Positions 35,138 to 52,520 of a DNA stretch of 52,520 bases are shown here, one piece after another. This stretch comes from Betaproteobacteria bacterium. Lineage in GTDB: Bacteria > Pseudomonadota > Gammaproteobacteria > Burkholderiales > SG8-41. Position numbers and translations under genes: made by a program. Numbering within the stretch: the stretch's first letter is position 1; each line of letters starts with the position of its first letter. The notes beneath the pieces were generated by a model. That model saw nothing but the letters and a program-made list of their open reading frames with translations. It ran no database searches and was not told where the DNA came from. Where the stretch lies: NCBI GenBank assembly GCA_021732605.1, contig JAKFUS010000035.1, positions 6,443 through 58,962 of the forward strand, given 5' to 3'.

Positions 35138-36763
35138 TCAGAGGGCTTCATCGCCGGCATGGTCCGCGGCGTTGACGGCAACCCAGTGCGTGACCGGCGG
35201 CGACCCGTCACCACGATGAAAAGCGCGGAGCCGCGTCACCACCGCGGTATCTTCGGCGGTGCCGCGGTGATGCTGGCGCAGGTGCTCGGCCCAGGACTCG
35301 ACGACAAAGGTTTCAACATAGCGCCCGGGCACGGCTGCGTCCTCGAACAATCCCCAGGACAGTGCGCCGTCGCGGCGGCGGATGCGCTGCATGGCCTGCG
35401 CAGCCGCGATGAAATCCGCAGCGTCTGCCGGTGTGATCAGGTATTCAACATGCACGGCCACCGGACCGCGCTCGGGTGCAATTTCCGTATGGTGCTGCGG
35501 ATGCGGCTGCAACAAGTTTGCCGGTTCGGTGCGTGACAGCCCGTCCTCGCTGCCCAGCGACAGCCGCCAGGTGGCAAACATCGCAAGCACTCCGCCCGCC
35601 GCCGCCAGCAGCAGTGCCAGCGGCACGCCCCAGCGTGCCGCCACTGCCCCCCACATCACTGCACCGCCGGTCATGCCTGCGGCGTAAACCATCAAATAGG
35701 CCGACAGCGCGCGGGCCCGTACCCATTGCGGCACGGCAGTCTGCGCGCTGACATGCAACGTCGACAACACCGCCAGCCAGGCGGCGCCGCCGGCAAACAT
35801 CGCCGGCAGCAACAAGGCCATGCTGCCCGCCAGCGCGATGCCCACCGTCGCCGCCGCGTATAACACTGTGGCACCCCGTACCAGCACATCCCGCGCAAAA
35901 CGCCGCCGCAACCGCGGCATCACCATTGCGGCGCTGACCGCGCCGACTCCGATACCGGCGAGCAGCAAGCCGTAGCTATTTGCACCACCTCCGGTCTCGC
36001 GCGCAACCAGCGGCAGCAACGCCCAGGTGGCCGTCGCAAACAGAAAAAACGCCGCCGCCCGCGCCATCACGAATTGCAGCGCGACTGCTTCGCGCACATA
36101 ACGCACTCCGGCGCGCATCGCACCGAAAAACCGCTCCGCCGGCAAGGTGCTCGGCCGGGTCTCGCGCTGCCAGCGCGCCAGCACAAAGATGACTACGACA
36201 AACGACAGCGCGTTGAGCAGGAATGCCGCCTGCGGGCCGGCAGCGGCAACGAGCACACCGGCCAGCGCCGGCCCCACGGCGCGCGCAAGGTTGATACCCA
36301 GACTGTTCAGCGCAATCGCTGCCGGCAATTGCGCCCGCGGTACCAGCTCCGGCACGGTTGCCGCCCATGCCGGCGTGTTCAGCGCGGCGCCGCAGGCCAG
36401 TGCAAAGGTGAACGCGAGCAATGCCCAGGCATTGATCCAGCCCAGCGCGGTGACCACCGCCAGCAGCACCGCAACCAGCAGCATCCACAGTTGCGTAAAA
36501 ATCAGGTAACGCCGGCGGTCGACAATGTCAGCCAGTGCGCCGCCCGGCAATGCCAGCAGGAATATCGGCAGCGCAGCGGCGGCCTGCACCAGCGACACCA
36601 TCACCGGATGCGGATCGAGGGTGACCATCAGCCAGCCGGCGCCGACCTCATGGATCCAGGTGCCGATGTTGGAAATGACCGTGGCAATCCACAATGCACG
36701 GAACAGCGGCTGGCGCAGCGGCGTCCAGGCGGAAGGTGGCGATCCGGGTTGGGGATCAGTCAT
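35138..36763 (-). CDS. MFS transporter of the EntS/MFS_3 type with C-terminal soluble domain
   Basis: A 541-residue protein. Residues about 20-410 form a 10-12-segment major-facilitator exporter (FRALWIATVISNIGTWIHEVGAGWLM, motif-A-like GGALADIVDRRR). The last 120 residues are soluble (VAVHVEYLITPADAADFIAAAQAM, GALSWGLFEDAAVPGRYVETFVVESWAEHLRQHHR) and resemble an antibiotic-biosynthesis-monooxygenase-type ferredoxin fold, a pairing seen in this MFS subgroup. The ATG at 36763 is chosen by homology; a 17-codon extension lacks support. It follows the AhpD-like gene by seven bases. Confidence 0.88.
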   Translation of the reverse strand: MTDPQPGSPPSAWTPLRQPLFRALWIATVISNIGTWIHEVGAGWLMVTLDPHPVMVSLVQAAAALPIFLLALPGGALADIVDRRRYLIFTQLWMLLVAVLLAVVTALGWINAWALLAFTFALACGAALNTPAWAATVPELVPRAQLPAAIALNSLGINLARAVGPALAGVLVAAAGPQAAFLLNALSFVVVIFVLARWQRETRPSTLPAERFFGAMRAGVRYVREAVALQFVMARAAAFFLFATATWALLPLVARETGGGANSYGLLLAGIGVGAVSAAMVMPRLRRRFARDVLVRGATVLYAAATVGIALAGSMALLLPAMFAGGAAWLAVLSTLHVSAQTAVPQWVRARALSAYLMVYAAGMTGGAVMWGAVAARWGVPLALLLAAAGGVLAMFATWRLSLGSEDGLSRTEPANLLQPHPQHHTEIAPERGPVAVHVEYLITPADAADFIAAAQAMQRIRRRDGALSWGLFEDAAVPGRYVETFVVESWAEHLRQHHRGTAEDTAVVTRLRAFHRGDGSPPVTHWVAVNAADHAGDEAL

Positions 36764-36770
36764 GGGTGTT

Positions 36771-37340
36771 TCAAGTGGCGACAGGCCTTTTCCTGAGAAA
36801 CGCATCGAACTCACCCTGTTTGGCCGACAAGGTTTTCAGCCAGCGCTGGCCGCCGAATGTAAATCCGATCCAGTAGCCGATTTCGACGATTTCAGCCTCG
36901 GAGAATTCACCTTTCAACTGCCCCCACAGCGCGTCATCAGCCTGATTGGGGTCATACATGATGGCGTCGGCGTAGCGGAGCGCGATCTTTTCCCGATCCG
37001 AAAACTTCCCGGACTGTTCGTATTTAAGCAGTTCGTACATCCTGTCATTCTCATCCAGCGCGGACCGCGCTGTTCCCTGATTGCTTCAGTAACCGCATTC
37101 AATGGTATGCGCGACGTAAGCCCTCAACAGCTCCTTGAGCTTGTGCTCGACGACGCCGGCGTCGTTGTCAAACAGCAATTCACGCGTGAGCGTAAACGAG
37201 CGCATGACGTCTGGCTGGTGCGCGCGAATCGCCTGATTTTCAGGGCCCGGTCGTCCAGCGGCGACTGCGACGTCGAGCCATCCGCGGATTTGCGGATCGG
37301 CAATGGTCTCGGGATCAACGTAACTTAAACGCGCCATCAT
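36771..37340 (-). CDS. Carboxymuconolactone decarboxylase/AhpD-like protein, probable selenoprotein (TGA = Sec)
   Basis: A single 189-codon frame from the ATG at 37340 (GGAGG upstream) to 36771 contains one TGA at 37086-37088. The first part ends LKELLRAYVAHTIECGY; after the TGA the same frame continues SNQGTARSALDENDRMYELL, then SDREKIALRYADAI and EIGYWIGFTFGGQRWL, as in full-length family members. These have C-x-Y-C followed by x-N-Q at this point, so the TGA replaces the second cysteine of the redox CxxC motif (Cys 82, Sec 85). A stem-loop with loop GGUCC follows 19 bases after the TGA. In AhpD the CxxC pair carries out peroxide reduction. Sec insertion is inferred; a Cys-to-stop mutation is the alternative. 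Confidence 0.75.
37056..37072 (-). promoter_or_regulatory. Bacterial SECIS candidate in the AhpD-like gene
   Basis: On the mRNA, CAGCGC-GGUCC-GCGCUG: a perfect 6-bp stem with a 5-base loop starting GG, 19 bases between the UGA and the loop. A lower AUC/GAU pairing extends it. The loop differs in one base from the GGUCU of the E. coli fdhF SECIS. This meets the known criteria for SelB recognition (G in first two loop bases, loop 16-37 bases from UGA). Confidence 0.7.
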
Positions 37341-37448: not shown

Positions 37449-38390
37449 TCAGTCAAACAGGAAAACATCCACCGCGCCACCCTCAGCGATCCATGCCTCA
37501 AGTCCGCCTTCGAGCGGACGCACCCGCCGAAATCCCCGGTCCATCAGCATGCGGGCGACACGCGCCGCGCTGGCTTCGTTGGGTCAACTGCAATACACCA
37601 CCACATCGCGGTCCGGGGGAATGTCAGGCAGCGCGGCGGCGACATCGGCCATGTTCACGGCGACAGCGCCCGGTATGCGCCGCGGATCGAGTCTGCGCAC
37701 GGCGTCCGAGCGCACATCAACCACCACCGGCGGAATTTCACCCCGCAACAATTCCTGCAGTTCCTGCACTGTCATCCGCGCCGCCCGCAGCATGCGCAGG
37801 AACAGATAACGCTGCACGGCCTTCAGCGCGACATAAGCTGCGATCACCGCACCGAGCATCAACAATGCCCCGGAGCCGAGTTCGGTCAGCCGTCCAAGCG
37901 CCCATTCGACCTCTGTATGAAACACTGCTCCCAGCGCCACCGGCACCGCAATCCACAGCAGGGCGCCGAGGGTGCTGAACAGCAGGAAGGACGGCAAACC
38001 GAGCTGCATCGCGCCGGCCAGCGGCGGTGCAACCGTCGAAAATCCGGGAATATATTTGGCGACAATCAGCGACGGCGCGCCCCAGCGCTCGAAAATGGAT
38101 TCCGTCTGCCGGACACAGGAATCCGGCTCGATCGAAATCCGGCACAGCGTGCGCAGCACCCGGTGGCCGTAACGCCGGCCGGCAAAATACCAGGGAATAT
38201 CACCGGCCAGGGTCGCCGCCAGCGCAGTCAGCAGCAGCGCGGCGTAACCGAACTCGCCCTGTGCCGCCAGCGCGCCGGCTACCACCAGCATCGGCACAGC
38301 GGGCACCGGAATACCCGCCTGCGTCAGCAAAACATTGGCAAACACCAGGAGCAAACCGTGTTGTGCCAGTAGTTCCGTCATTTCGTGCAT
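37449..38390 (-). CDS. DedA-rhodanese fusion, probable selenoprotein (TGA = Sec)
   Basis: A 313-codon frame with GGGAG before the ATG at 38390. Residues about 1-200 are a DedA/SNARE-associated membrane domain (AGIPVPAVPMLVVAGAL, GDIPWYFAGRRYG, AKYIPGFSTVAPPLAGAM). Residues about 205-313 are a rhodanese domain (VQELQELLRGEIPPVVVDVR, RRIPGAVAVNM). The frame meets TGA at 37584-37586 after DVVVYCS and then continues PNEASAARVARMLMDRGFRR, RVRPLEGGLEAW, up to a TGA at 37449. Homologues read YC-[ST]-CPNEAS, so Sec 269 stands at the rhodanese catalytic cysteine. A SECIS-like stem-loop follows. Read as a normal stop, the protein would lose the active site and last 44 residues. Confidence 0.75.
37546..37571 (-). 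promoter_or_regulatory. Bacterial SECIS candidate in the DedA-rhodanese gene
   Basis: On the mRNA a GGCG/CGCC top stem carries loop CGUGU, extended by GC/GC and AGC/GCU with small bulges. The apical loop lies 21 bases after the UGA and has G as second base and a GU pair, within the bacterial SECIS criteria. It is less regular than the one in the neighbouring gene. Confidence 0.55.
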
Positions 38391-38459: not shown

Positions 38460-39242
38460 TTAATCAAAGCGCCAGGCATCCATGCCGATCACGCCGTAGG
38501 TGTAGCCGCTGTGGATATGCTGCGGCGACACTCCGGGTGTTCCCGCGCCATAAGCCGCAAACAACGGCAATAAATGCTCTTCCGTCGGATGGTTGCGCGC
38601 CGCCTGTGGCGCCAGCCGACGATAGTCCAGCAGATCCGCGCTGCGTCCCGCCGCTATCGTTTCCGCCAGCCAGTCATCGAATGTGCTGACCCAGTCCGGC
38701 GGCGGCGAATCATAACGATGATTGCGGAATTCACTCAGGTTATGCGTCGCGCTGCCGGAACCGATGATCAGCACACCTTCATCGCGCAAGGGCCGCAAGG
38801 CCTCGCCCAGTCGCAGGTGATGCGCCGGACCCAGTTGCGTTTGCACCGCGACCTGTGCCACGGGAATATCGGCATCCGGATACATCAGCAGCAAGGGCAC
38901 CCACGCGCCGTGGTCGAGGCCGCGATCCGGCACTGCAGCGGCAGCCAGGCCGGCTTCCGTCAATAATTGCAGCGCCTGCTGCGCAAGCAGAGGTGCACCC
39001 GGTGCCGGATAACGCATCCGGTACAGTGCTTCCGGGAAACCGTAAAAATCATGAATGGTTTCCGGCTGCAACGCAGTGCTGATCGCGGGCGCCGCCGTTT
39101 CCCAATGCGCCGACACCACGAGTATTGCCTTGGGACGCCCGAGCCCGGTGCCGAGTTGCGCGAGAAAACCGCGCGTCGATCCGGGCTCAAGCGCCAGTGT
39201 GGGCGCACCGTGCGACACAAACAGTGCAGGGAAACGGTCCAT
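38460..39242 (-). CDS. LigB/DODA-type extradiol dioxygenase (YgiD-like)
   Basis: A 260-residue class III extradiol ring-cleavage dioxygenase similar to E. coli YgiD, 4,5-DOPA dioxygenase. Probable metal and catalytic histidines are visible: His 11 in FVSHGAP, His 46 in SAHWE, His 111 in DHGAWVPL, and His 223 in EEHLLPLF; SGSATHNL is also conserved. It is placed between the WrbA-like and DedA-rhodanese genes on the same strand, which suggests a role in catechol or quinol removal. Its natural substrate is unknown. Confidence 0.93.
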   Translation of the reverse strand: MDRFPALFVSHGAPTLALEPGSTRGFLAQLGTGLGRPKAILVVSAHWETAAPAISTALQPETIHDFYGFPEALYRMRYPAPGAPLLAQQALQLLTEAGLAAAAVPDRGLDHGAWVPLLLMYPDADIPVAQVAVQTQLGPAHHLRLGEALRPLRDEGVLIIGSGSATHNLSEFRNHRYDSPPPDWVSTFDDWLAETIAAGRSADLLDYRRLAPQAARNHPTEEHLLPLFAAYGAGTPGVSPQHIHSGYTYGVIGMDAWRFD

Positions 39243-50477: not shown

Positions 50478-52520
50478 GTCCTGCATCCTGGCCATCTGCA
50501 TGGCCTGTTGTGCACCCCATGCCGGCGGCAGTGATGGCCTGCTCCTCCTGCAAACAACTCCCGCACTGGGAACCAGCACCCCTCAGCTGAATCCATCCAC
50601 GCAGCCCCTCCCAGCGCCATTGCAGCTTGCACAAAGTGGCGATCTGCGCACCGATTCGTCAGTTTCCCGGGCATCGGTCGCACTGATGACCGTGCGCATC
50701 AACGGACGAGAATTAAGCGATGTTTACCGTATCCTGCAACTTGCGGACGGCAGCCTGCTGATTAGCGTCGGGGATTTGCAGCGCTGGCGTCTGAGGTTGC
50801 CGAAAGCCATCACCCTGCACCAGGGAGAACCATACATCGCCTTGTCCGGCATTGATGGGCTCTCCTACAGTCTGGATACCGGCAGGCAGGAATTGGCGTT
50901 ACGGGCGGCACCGGCATTATTTGAGGAAGAACGCATCACCCTCTCGCGGGATCGCAGCGCCCCGCCGGTTCAGCCTGGATGGGGAAGTTTTCTGAATTAC
51001 GACATCCTCGCCCAGCGCACGAATCAGATCGATACATTGAACGGACTCGCCGAACTGGGGGTGTTCAGCCCCTGGGGGGTGGCCACCAGCACGCACCTCA
51101 ACGAAGATCAGGGCCAGCGGCGGCGAAGCTTGCGTCTTGAAACAACATTTACACGCGATCTCCCTTACCAGCGCAGCAGCCTGCGATTGGGAGACACGCA
51201 GACCAGACCCGGCATCACCGGCACCGGCGTGCGTTTTGGCGGCACCCAGTGGACCACCAACTTTGCCACGCAGCCTGGATTCATCCCCTATCCACTGCCC
51301 GCACTCCGCGGCGAAGCTGCAGTGCCGTCGGCAGTGGAAATTTTTGTCAATAACGCATTGAACACCCGCAGTGAAGTGAGGCCGGGACCCTTTGAAATCA
51401 CCAGACTGCCGGTGATCACCGGCCAGGGCGAAGTGCGCCTTGTACAGCGGGATTTCCTCGGGCGTGAAGTGATCAGCGTCGTACCCTATTACGTGAGTCC
51501 GCAACTGCTGCAGCAGGGACTGGATGATTTCTCCTACCAGGCCGGTATGGTCCGCGAAAACTTCGGCCTTGAAAGTGATGACTACGGCCGCGCATTTTTT
51601 TCCGGCCTGCACCGTTACGGGATATCAAATCGCCTGACCGGAGAAGCCCGGATGGAACTGCTGTCCGACCAGCAGACGCTGGGACTCGGCGGCAGCTATC
51701 TTTACCGGGAGATCGGCACCCTCAGCACTGCCGCTGCCGTCAGTCATTCTCCCGCCGGCACCGGACACCTGACACTGCTGCAGCTTGAACGCCAGACTCA
51801 GCGCATGAGCGCAGGCGCCCGCTATCAGATTGCCGACGATGCATACACGCAACTGGGCAGCACTCAATTTTTCAGCGTGCCGCGAAAACAGAAAAACCTG
51901 AACCTCGGTTATTCACCGGGTATCGGCTCTTTCGGCGTCAGTTACACCGACCTGGAATACCGCAACAATCAGTCCACCCGCATCCTGTCCATGAGCTACA
52001 GCCTGCCCCTGCCCGGAGGTTTTTTTCTCAGCCTGACTGCCTTGCAAATCGAGGACAACAGCGCAAAAAACCACAGCGTCGGCCTCACACTGGTCAAAGC
52101 GATCGGCCAACGCACTACCCTGGCGGCCAATACCACACGCCAGTCGGGCAGGGATGACAGCACCCTTCAGATACAGCAGAATCTGCCGGCCGGTCCGGGC
52201 ACGGCGTTTCGGGCCCTGGTCGGGACCGGCGCCACACAGCGCGAAGAGGCCGGCATCGCTTTGCAGACCAACACCGGAAATTACAGCCTTGATGCCGGAC
52301 GGTCGGCGGGCACCGACAGCGTCCGCCTCAATGCATCCGGCGGCATAGCCGCAATCGACAGCCGGCTGGTTTTTTCGCGCAGACTTGAGGACAGCTTCGC
52401 AATGGTGAACGTGGGCGGATATGCCGGTGTTGATGTGTACCAGAACAATCAGCTGATTGCCCGCACTGACGAAGCCGGCAAAGCGCTGCTGCCGCGACTG
52501 CTGCCCTATCAGGAGAACCG
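50449..52520 (+). CDS. Fimbrial outer-membrane usher (CsuD-like), runs off the right edge
   Basis: An open frame of 690 complete codons without a stop to the window end. From an ATG at 50449 (29 bases inside the chaperone gene) a signal-like N-terminus MRIFQWKTPESCILAICMAC, with a possible cleavage after APHA, leads to the usher N-domain (VRINGRELSDVYRILQLADG). Barrel and plug regions follow: GWGSFLNYDILAQ, GVRFGGTQW, PALRGEAAVPSAVEIFVNN and LPVITGQGEVRLVQRDFLGR. It secretes and assembles SCPU-type subunits. The start is uncertain; an internal ATG at 50500 would cut the signal peptide. Confidence 0.9.
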   Translation, partial: MRIFQWKTPESCILAICMACCAPHAGGSDGLLLLQTTPALGTSTPQLNPSTQPLPAPLQLAQSGDLRTDSSVSRASVALMTVRINGRELSDVYRILQLADGSLLISVGDLQRWRLRLPKAITLHQGEPYIALSGIDGLSYSLDTGRQELALRAAPALFEEERITLSRDRSAPPVQPGWGSFLNYDILAQRTNQIDTLNGLAELGVFSPWGVATSTHLNEDQGQRRRSLRLETTFTRDLPYQRSSLRLGDTQTRPGITGTGVRFGGTQWTTNFATQPGFIPYPLPALRGEAAVPSAVEIFVNNALNTRSEVRPGPFEITRLPVITGQGEVRLVQRDFLGREVISVVPYYVSPQLLQQGLDDFSYQAGMVRENFGLESDDYGRAFFSGLHRYGISNRLTGEARMELLSDQQTLGLGGSYLYREIGTLSTAAAVSHSPAGTGHLTLLQLERQTQRMSAGARYQIADDAYTQLGSTQFFSVPRKQKNLNLGYSPGIGSFGVSYTDLEYRNNQSTRILSMSYSLPLPGGFFLSLTALQIEDNSAKNHSVGLTLVKAIGQRTTLAANTTRQSGRDDSTLQIQQNLPAGPGTAFRALVGTGATQREEAGIALQTNTGNYSLDAGRSAGTDSVRLNASGGIAAIDSRLVFSRRLEDSFAMVNVGGYAGVDVYQNNQLIARTDEAGKALLPRLLPYQEN

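Follow-up and report, generated by a model that had tools for sequence, protein, structure and literature searches.

A TGA-interrupted gene of the CMD/AhpD superfamily as a probable CxxU selenoprotein in a betaproteobacterial genome, adjoining a very probable DedA-rhodanese selenoprotein

The DNA analysed here is a stretch of 52,520 nucleotides from a betaproteobacterial genome, referred to throughout as the window. On its reverse strand lies a gene of the carboxymuconolactone decarboxylase (CMD)/AhpD superfamily that carries TGA both internally and as its terminator, and directly upstream of it is a gene for a DedA-rhodanese fusion protein with an internal TGA of its own. The features of the locus, named according to the readings argued for below, are as follows.

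35138..36763 (-), MFS_3 transporter gene, downstream and co-oriented; its ATG (36761-36763) lies 7 nt after the CMD stop
36771..37337 (-), probable selenoprotein gene of the CMD/AhpD superfamily, 188 codons plus a TGA stop at 36771-36773
37056..37072 (-), SECIS-like hairpin CAGCGC-GGTCC-GCGCTG, its stem beginning 13 nt after the TGA
37086..37088 (-), TGA read as selenocysteine (U84), second position of C81-x-x-U84
37449..38390 (-), very probable second selenoprotein gene with DedA/VTT and rhodanese domains, 313 codons plus a TGA stop at 37449-37451
37550..37583 (-), presumed SECIS region of the rhodanese gene, with synonymous sites frozen in TGA members only
37584..37586 (-), TGA read as selenocysteine (U269), rhodanese motif YC-S-U-PNEASA
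38460..39242 (-), LigB-type dioxygenase gene, upstream and co-oriented

The first-pass annotation, made from the letters of the window, had reported a TGA at 37086-37088 inside an otherwise intact frame, at the position of the second Cys of a CxxC motif, and this is borne out: the internal TGA is residue 84 of the CMD protein (85 if counted from the first ATG) and the motif around it, ECGY-U-SNQGTARS, is of the C-x-x-C type. The frame, given there as 189 codons with the strand left unstated, is indeed intact and lies on the reverse strand; it comprises 188 codons from the ATG at 37337 and one more from the ATG at 37340, the second of these two ATGs having GGAGG 6 nt before it and being the one at which homologues begin in the alignment. 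A plain listing of open reading frames breaks the gene into pieces of 84 and 89 amino acids, just as had been claimed for standard callers.

Six co-oriented genes run from 40713 down to 35138 on the reverse strand (pirin, flavodoxin-like, LigB, DedA-rhodanese, CMD and MFS_3), with a LysR gene divergent from them and a gap of 111 nt between the DedA-rhodanese and CMD genes. Since all six are co-oriented they may form one operon, possibly one concerned with redox or aromatic-compound metabolism. When the neighbourhoods of 47 relatives and of the window (48 loci) were clustered, no functional partner emerged; judged by their representatives, the clusters seen most often are TctC receptors, GntR regulators and patatins. 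Apart from the window's genome, just two (L022/L051 and L077) had both the CMD and the DedA-rhodanese gene within the fetched flanks of at most 4 kb; in at least seven more (G004, G005, G016, G017, G019, G020 and G026) these two Sec genes lay 20-35 kb apart on one contig.

When the 313 TGAs of the window that are flanked on either side by open frames were ranked by codon usage, the two read here as Sec codons came 3rd and 10th, which by itself is not decisive. Ranked 12th was the TGA at 51625-51627, which parts two same-frame open reading frames (50917-51867, reverse strand); codon use resembles that of coding sequence both before and after it, Pfam matches neither of the two frames, and no Cys motif surrounds this TGA.

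Conservation of the CMD site was assessed in a single scan across genomes of bacteria and archaea, which yielded 49 loci, 48 of them spanning the TGA site (L095 ends before it). Six search patterns were used and the single pattern spanning the site has Cys there, so the scan was not biased toward TGA. All 48 site-covering loci, from Pseudomonadota, Myxococcota and Acidobacteriota, have TGA at the Sec position. A Cys codon at this position, which the first-pass annotation had named as evidence that would count against its reading, was looked for in the homologues and found in none of the 48, their identity to the window protein being 55-89%. L082, which has TGA at the site, meets a TAA in frame 11 codons further on. 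Pooling the scan with the loci of further relatives, L082 and L095 excluded, gave 50 distinct Sec proteins. No variation was seen at E69, C81 or the Sec position (where L134 has Cys) in an alignment of 38 rows, and the frame beyond the TGA is conserved among the homologues.

Cys at the Sec position was seen solely in more distant paralogues of the same genomes (motif C-E-F-C-G-N-Q-R-S, e.g. L134), which share the NQ after the redox pair and have approximately 33-41% identity. In a tree of 52 hand-picked rows, the clade holding the window gene has Sec in 27 of 27 rows (support 95/99), whereas these nearest Cys proteins, among them L134 from the window's own genome, form a separate clade with Cys in all 10 rows (support 100/100). 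The fork that places the Sec clade against the Cys clade is not resolved in this tree, which does not give the order of Sec and Cys. As judged from these sequences, the window gene appears to belong to a subfamily that is so far all-Sec and is present in genomes of three phyla.

The perfect 6-bp hairpin with loop GGUCC claimed in the first-pass annotation was recovered exactly (CAGCGC-GGTCC-GCGCTG); its distance of nineteen bases from the TGA holds for the start of the loop, not for the stem, which begins nearer to the TGA. The loop may be similar to the fdhF SECIS loop. Folded as a single sequence the hairpin is not significantly stable (z -1.24, with 22 of 200 shuffles equally stable), perfect hairpins of at least 6 bp starting 8-20 nt downstream follow 46 (2.8%) of the 1643 TGA trinucleotides that the window has on its two strands, and an Rfam search at the gathering score gave no match, so that the hairpin on its own is weak evidence. 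Comparison with relatives lifts it well beyond chance. For the hairpin alignment we used 36 of the 44 distinct 39-mers following the TGA, the other eight being L046 and seven of the L081-L093 group, the latter excluded on account of a hairpin judged by eye to be shifted. Standard pairs occupy all 216 pair cells of the 36 sequences, and two-sided changes are present in four of the six pairs, in nine cells altogether; the window hairpin itself has one such change, A-U as against C-G or U-A in relatives. The observed value was reached by none of 500 shuffles on four of five covariation measures, the fifth, further pair types, being matched by 29 of 500, and structures slid along the alignment paired at no more than 61.6%. 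Codon diversity was measured in the 34 betaproteobacterial-type genes among 51, excluding the more distant remainder, and was 0.226 over the 12 codons following Sec versus 0.431 elsewhere; the lowest of 153 ten-codon windows begins at the codon right after Sec. Selection on the hairpin is thus supported by covariation and codon constancy, stability alone not being significant.

The window's own genome (3.48 Mb in 75 contigs) encodes selB (423 bits; cut-off 242), a tRNA-Sec with anticodon TCA (75.9 bits; cut-off 47), selD (421 bits; cut-off 125) and, adjoining selB, selA (571.6 bits; cut-off 268). The absence of selB or selC, raised at the outset as a possible objection, is therefore contradicted by the presence of selA, selB, selC and selD in the genome. 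A TGA homologue scoring above 140 bits was found in 32 of 199 genomes (own included); selB at E<=1e-60 is present in 31 of these 32 versus 97 of the 199 overall, a count that is not independent since the genomes are related, and the remaining genome, G061, has selB in fragments at contig ends. SelD of the window's genome (L015) is probably a selenoprotein as well, its gene having an in-frame TGA within a GGGUGCK motif. Two other CMD genes of the same genome are also interrupted by an in-frame TGA (L131 and L133; CHYUMAH and CRYUMAH), the former scoring 69 bits against TIGR01926, under the cut-off of 81.8.

Two readings would dispense with selenocysteine. The gene could be a pseudogene or the product of a sequencing or assembly error, a Cys codon having turned into TGA by mutation or mis-call, as might be suspected from its splitting in the open reading frame listing, from the 75-contig assembly and from the additional in-frame TAA of homologue L082. 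The same codon is nevertheless TGA in every covering locus, the frame after it is kept and the hairpin shows two-sided compensatory changes, and we give this explanation practically no credence. Genome-wide reassignment of TGA, or its suppression without a SECIS to give Trp, Cys or another residue, would account for the internal TGA codons in several genes of this genome, but both the CMD and the rhodanese gene terminate in TGA, the Sec machinery is complete, the codons after the TGA are constant and TGA occupies Cys positions of homologues, all of which renders it highly improbable. Pseudogene, sequencing error and genome-wide reassignment were accordingly all rejected on TGA conservation, machinery and TGA stops. 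In a comparative sense Sec decoding is demonstrated by conservation, covariation, constant codons and the machinery, and we hold it to be nearly certain that the TGA-interrupted gene is a selenoprotein gene, decoded with Sec into a Cys-Sec redox protein. The original proposal of a CxxU selenoprotein is in this way supported both by comparison across relatives and by the Sec machinery in the genome.

The upstream gene encodes a DedA/VTT domain (50.9 bits) and a rhodanese domain (49.4 bits). The residue at its Sec position was checked in 46 genes including that of the window, roughly twenty other matches scoring over 200 bits lying outside this set; TGA was found in 33 of the 46 and Cys in 13. 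Four of the 33 TGA genes (L107, L119, L123 and L125) have TAG or TAA listed within the match, the query having run 17 residues beyond the stop. selB at E<=1e-60 is present in 32 of the 33 TGA holders (G061 has fragments) and in five of the 13 Cys holders. Across codons 275-279 the 33 TGA genes do not differ at a single base, and their codon diversity is 0.165 over the 12 codons after Sec versus 0.492 elsewhere; the corresponding values for the Cys set are 0.589 and 0.494, with only seven scorable codons and with the window gene added to the 13 for numbering. As a single sequence the presumed SECIS region does not fold significantly (z -1.00). On this comparison the DedA-rhodanese neighbour is very probably a second selenoprotein and, with TGA and Cys versions side by side and synonymous sites constant in the TGA version only, it offers a clean sequence-based example of Sec decoding.

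The assignment of the CMD protein to the CMD/AhpD family in the first-pass annotation stands for superfamily and fold; it does not extend to canonical AhpD, given the missing His and the scores below cut-off. The protein falls short of every NCBIfam and Pfam cut-off, scoring 21.9 bits against Pfam CMD PF02627 (gathering score 23), 33.2 bits against the peroxidase-related TIGR01926 (curated cut-off 81.8) and 50.5 bits against NF053654 (curated cut-off 310). The last of these, GroundWater_YciW 'YciW-related (seleno)protein', is the best NCBIfam match, over positions 1-158 of 179, and is matched by all 38 scanned rows at E<=0.01 (best row 4.3e-17). An AlphaFold model of the protein had a pLDDT of 80.5 and a pTM of 0.79, with residues 40-49 below pLDDT 50, and in a fold search with this model ranks 1-31 were all AhpD/CMD-type structures at a probability of at least 0.85, the matches having a TM of about 0.5, a large rmsd and in a single case E<=0.001. 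The model thus supports a predicted all-helical AhpD/CMD fold. The nearest solved proteins by profile are PA0269 and Atu0492, followed at a greater distance by Bmp8 (32.6 bits), which was also among the fold-search relatives and is, going by its PDB title, a CMD-fold debrominase; a literature search on Bmp8 found nothing relevant.

The invariant Glu of the 38 rows, E69, stands 12 residues before the first Cys, C81, and its spacing to the redox pair presumably matches that of the Glu and CxxC of AhpD. Canonical AhpD has a proton-relay His after the second Cys. At +3 and +4 after the redox pair the window protein has instead Q87 and G88, conserved in at least 90% of the rows (the distant Sec row L046, with His at +4, is an exception), whereas PA0269 and Atu0492 have His at +4, aligned with G88, and Bmp8 has His at +3, aligned with Q87. 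L131 and L133 of the same genome also have His at +3. With no His at either position, the AhpD proton relay cannot be transferred to the window protein which, being below every NCBIfam cut-off as well, is not a plain AhpD. The Cys paralogue clade likewise has no His at +3 or +4, and the absence of His therefore marks a wider group, not Sec.

Other CMD arrangements were observed among the relatives. L169, L170 and L171 have a tandem CMD pair, a Sec form C-x-Y-U-G-N-V-R-S followed by D-x-Y-F with neither Cys nor Sec, and the motifs suggest an active subunit paired with a degenerate one. In L155 a 3.2-kb stretch holds three CMD genes: two carry an in-frame TGA (CTYUGNQ and CEFUVDI), the third has Cys (CEFCGNQ).

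In the mechanism that we propose, SelB carrying Sec-tRNA(Sec) would bind the hairpin directly 3' of the UGA and Sec would be inserted at residue 84 of a CMD protein with the all-helical AhpD fold, in which Cys81 and Sec84 would constitute the redox pair. Sec84 would make the nucleophilic attack on the substrate, a peroxide or some other oxidised compound, Cys81 would resolve the intermediate to a selenenylsulfide, and this would be reduced by a thiol or thioredoxin-like partner; the chemistry, the roles of Cys81 and Sec84, the substrate and the reductant are all inferred. A function mainly as a peroxidase or thiol oxidoreductase is our favoured prediction, held with reasonable though far from full confidence. 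Granted Sec decoding, the protein might alternatively catalyse some other Cys-Sec reaction, such as a Bmp8-like reductive dehalogenation or persulfide/selenide chemistry with the rhodanese, a suggestion that draws on the appearance of Bmp8 among the solved relatives by both profile and fold, on the missing AhpD-type His and on the Sec rhodanese directly upstream. PA0269 and Atu0492 are, however, closer solved profile matches than Bmp8, which itself has His at +3, and in the fetched flanks the rhodanese fusion adjoins the CMD gene in just two other genomes; we consider such chemistry rather unlikely. More specifically, a Sec CMD subfamily lacking the AhpD-type His and performing non-peroxide chemistry, whether Bmp8-like dehalogenation or persulfide/selenide chemistry, and possibly acting in series with the membrane-anchored Sec rhodanese, seems to us a long shot. 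On the favoured reading, peroxidase or thiol oxidoreductase, the gene would make available for functional work a small Sec oxidoreductase, its genome holding no fewer than two other CMD genes interrupted by an in-frame TGA. As standard open reading frame calling splits the gene and the all-Sec subfamily lies below the curated models, such proteins may be truncated in annotations or missing from them.

The neighbour shares a rhodanese domain and CxU with NF041203, rhodanese-related (seleno)protein (form 3, CxU), but scores only 74.2 bits against it (curated cut-off 115) and is in addition fused to a DedA/VTT membrane domain; in a literature search combining DedA, rhodanese and selenoprotein, none among the matches listed contained both DedA and rhodanese. 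The searched terms were absent from the deep-Sep paper (PMC12013277). For the CMD protein, the earlier statement that AhpD-like selenoproteins had been reported from environmental data agrees with the accessible text of two surveys, which describe CxxU proteins of the AhpD/CMD superfamily from the Sargasso Sea (PMC1088965) and GOS (PMC2398784). AhpD-like and CMD-like CxxU families, together with a CxU rhodanese, are tabulated in the accessible parts of a 2022 review (PMC9312934), where the AhpD-like family is COG2128 and is named YciW, and of a 2026 review (PMC13188914), whose table files the CxxU AhpD/CMD families under TIGR01926 and PF02627. These published selenoproteins, as far as the accessible text describes them, have the same superfamily, the same C-x-x-U placement and a SECIS after the TGA. 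The window protein differs in falling below both of the models under which they are filed (33 against 81.8 for TIGR01926 and 21.9 against 23 for PF02627), a comparison with models and not with member sequences, and overlap of its subfamily with the published families is possible. Given a YciW-related best NCBIfam match and an AhpD-like family named YciW, it could be part of the broader family already described. The window protein is best classed, at subfamily level, with the known CxxU AhpD/CMD-like selenoproteins.
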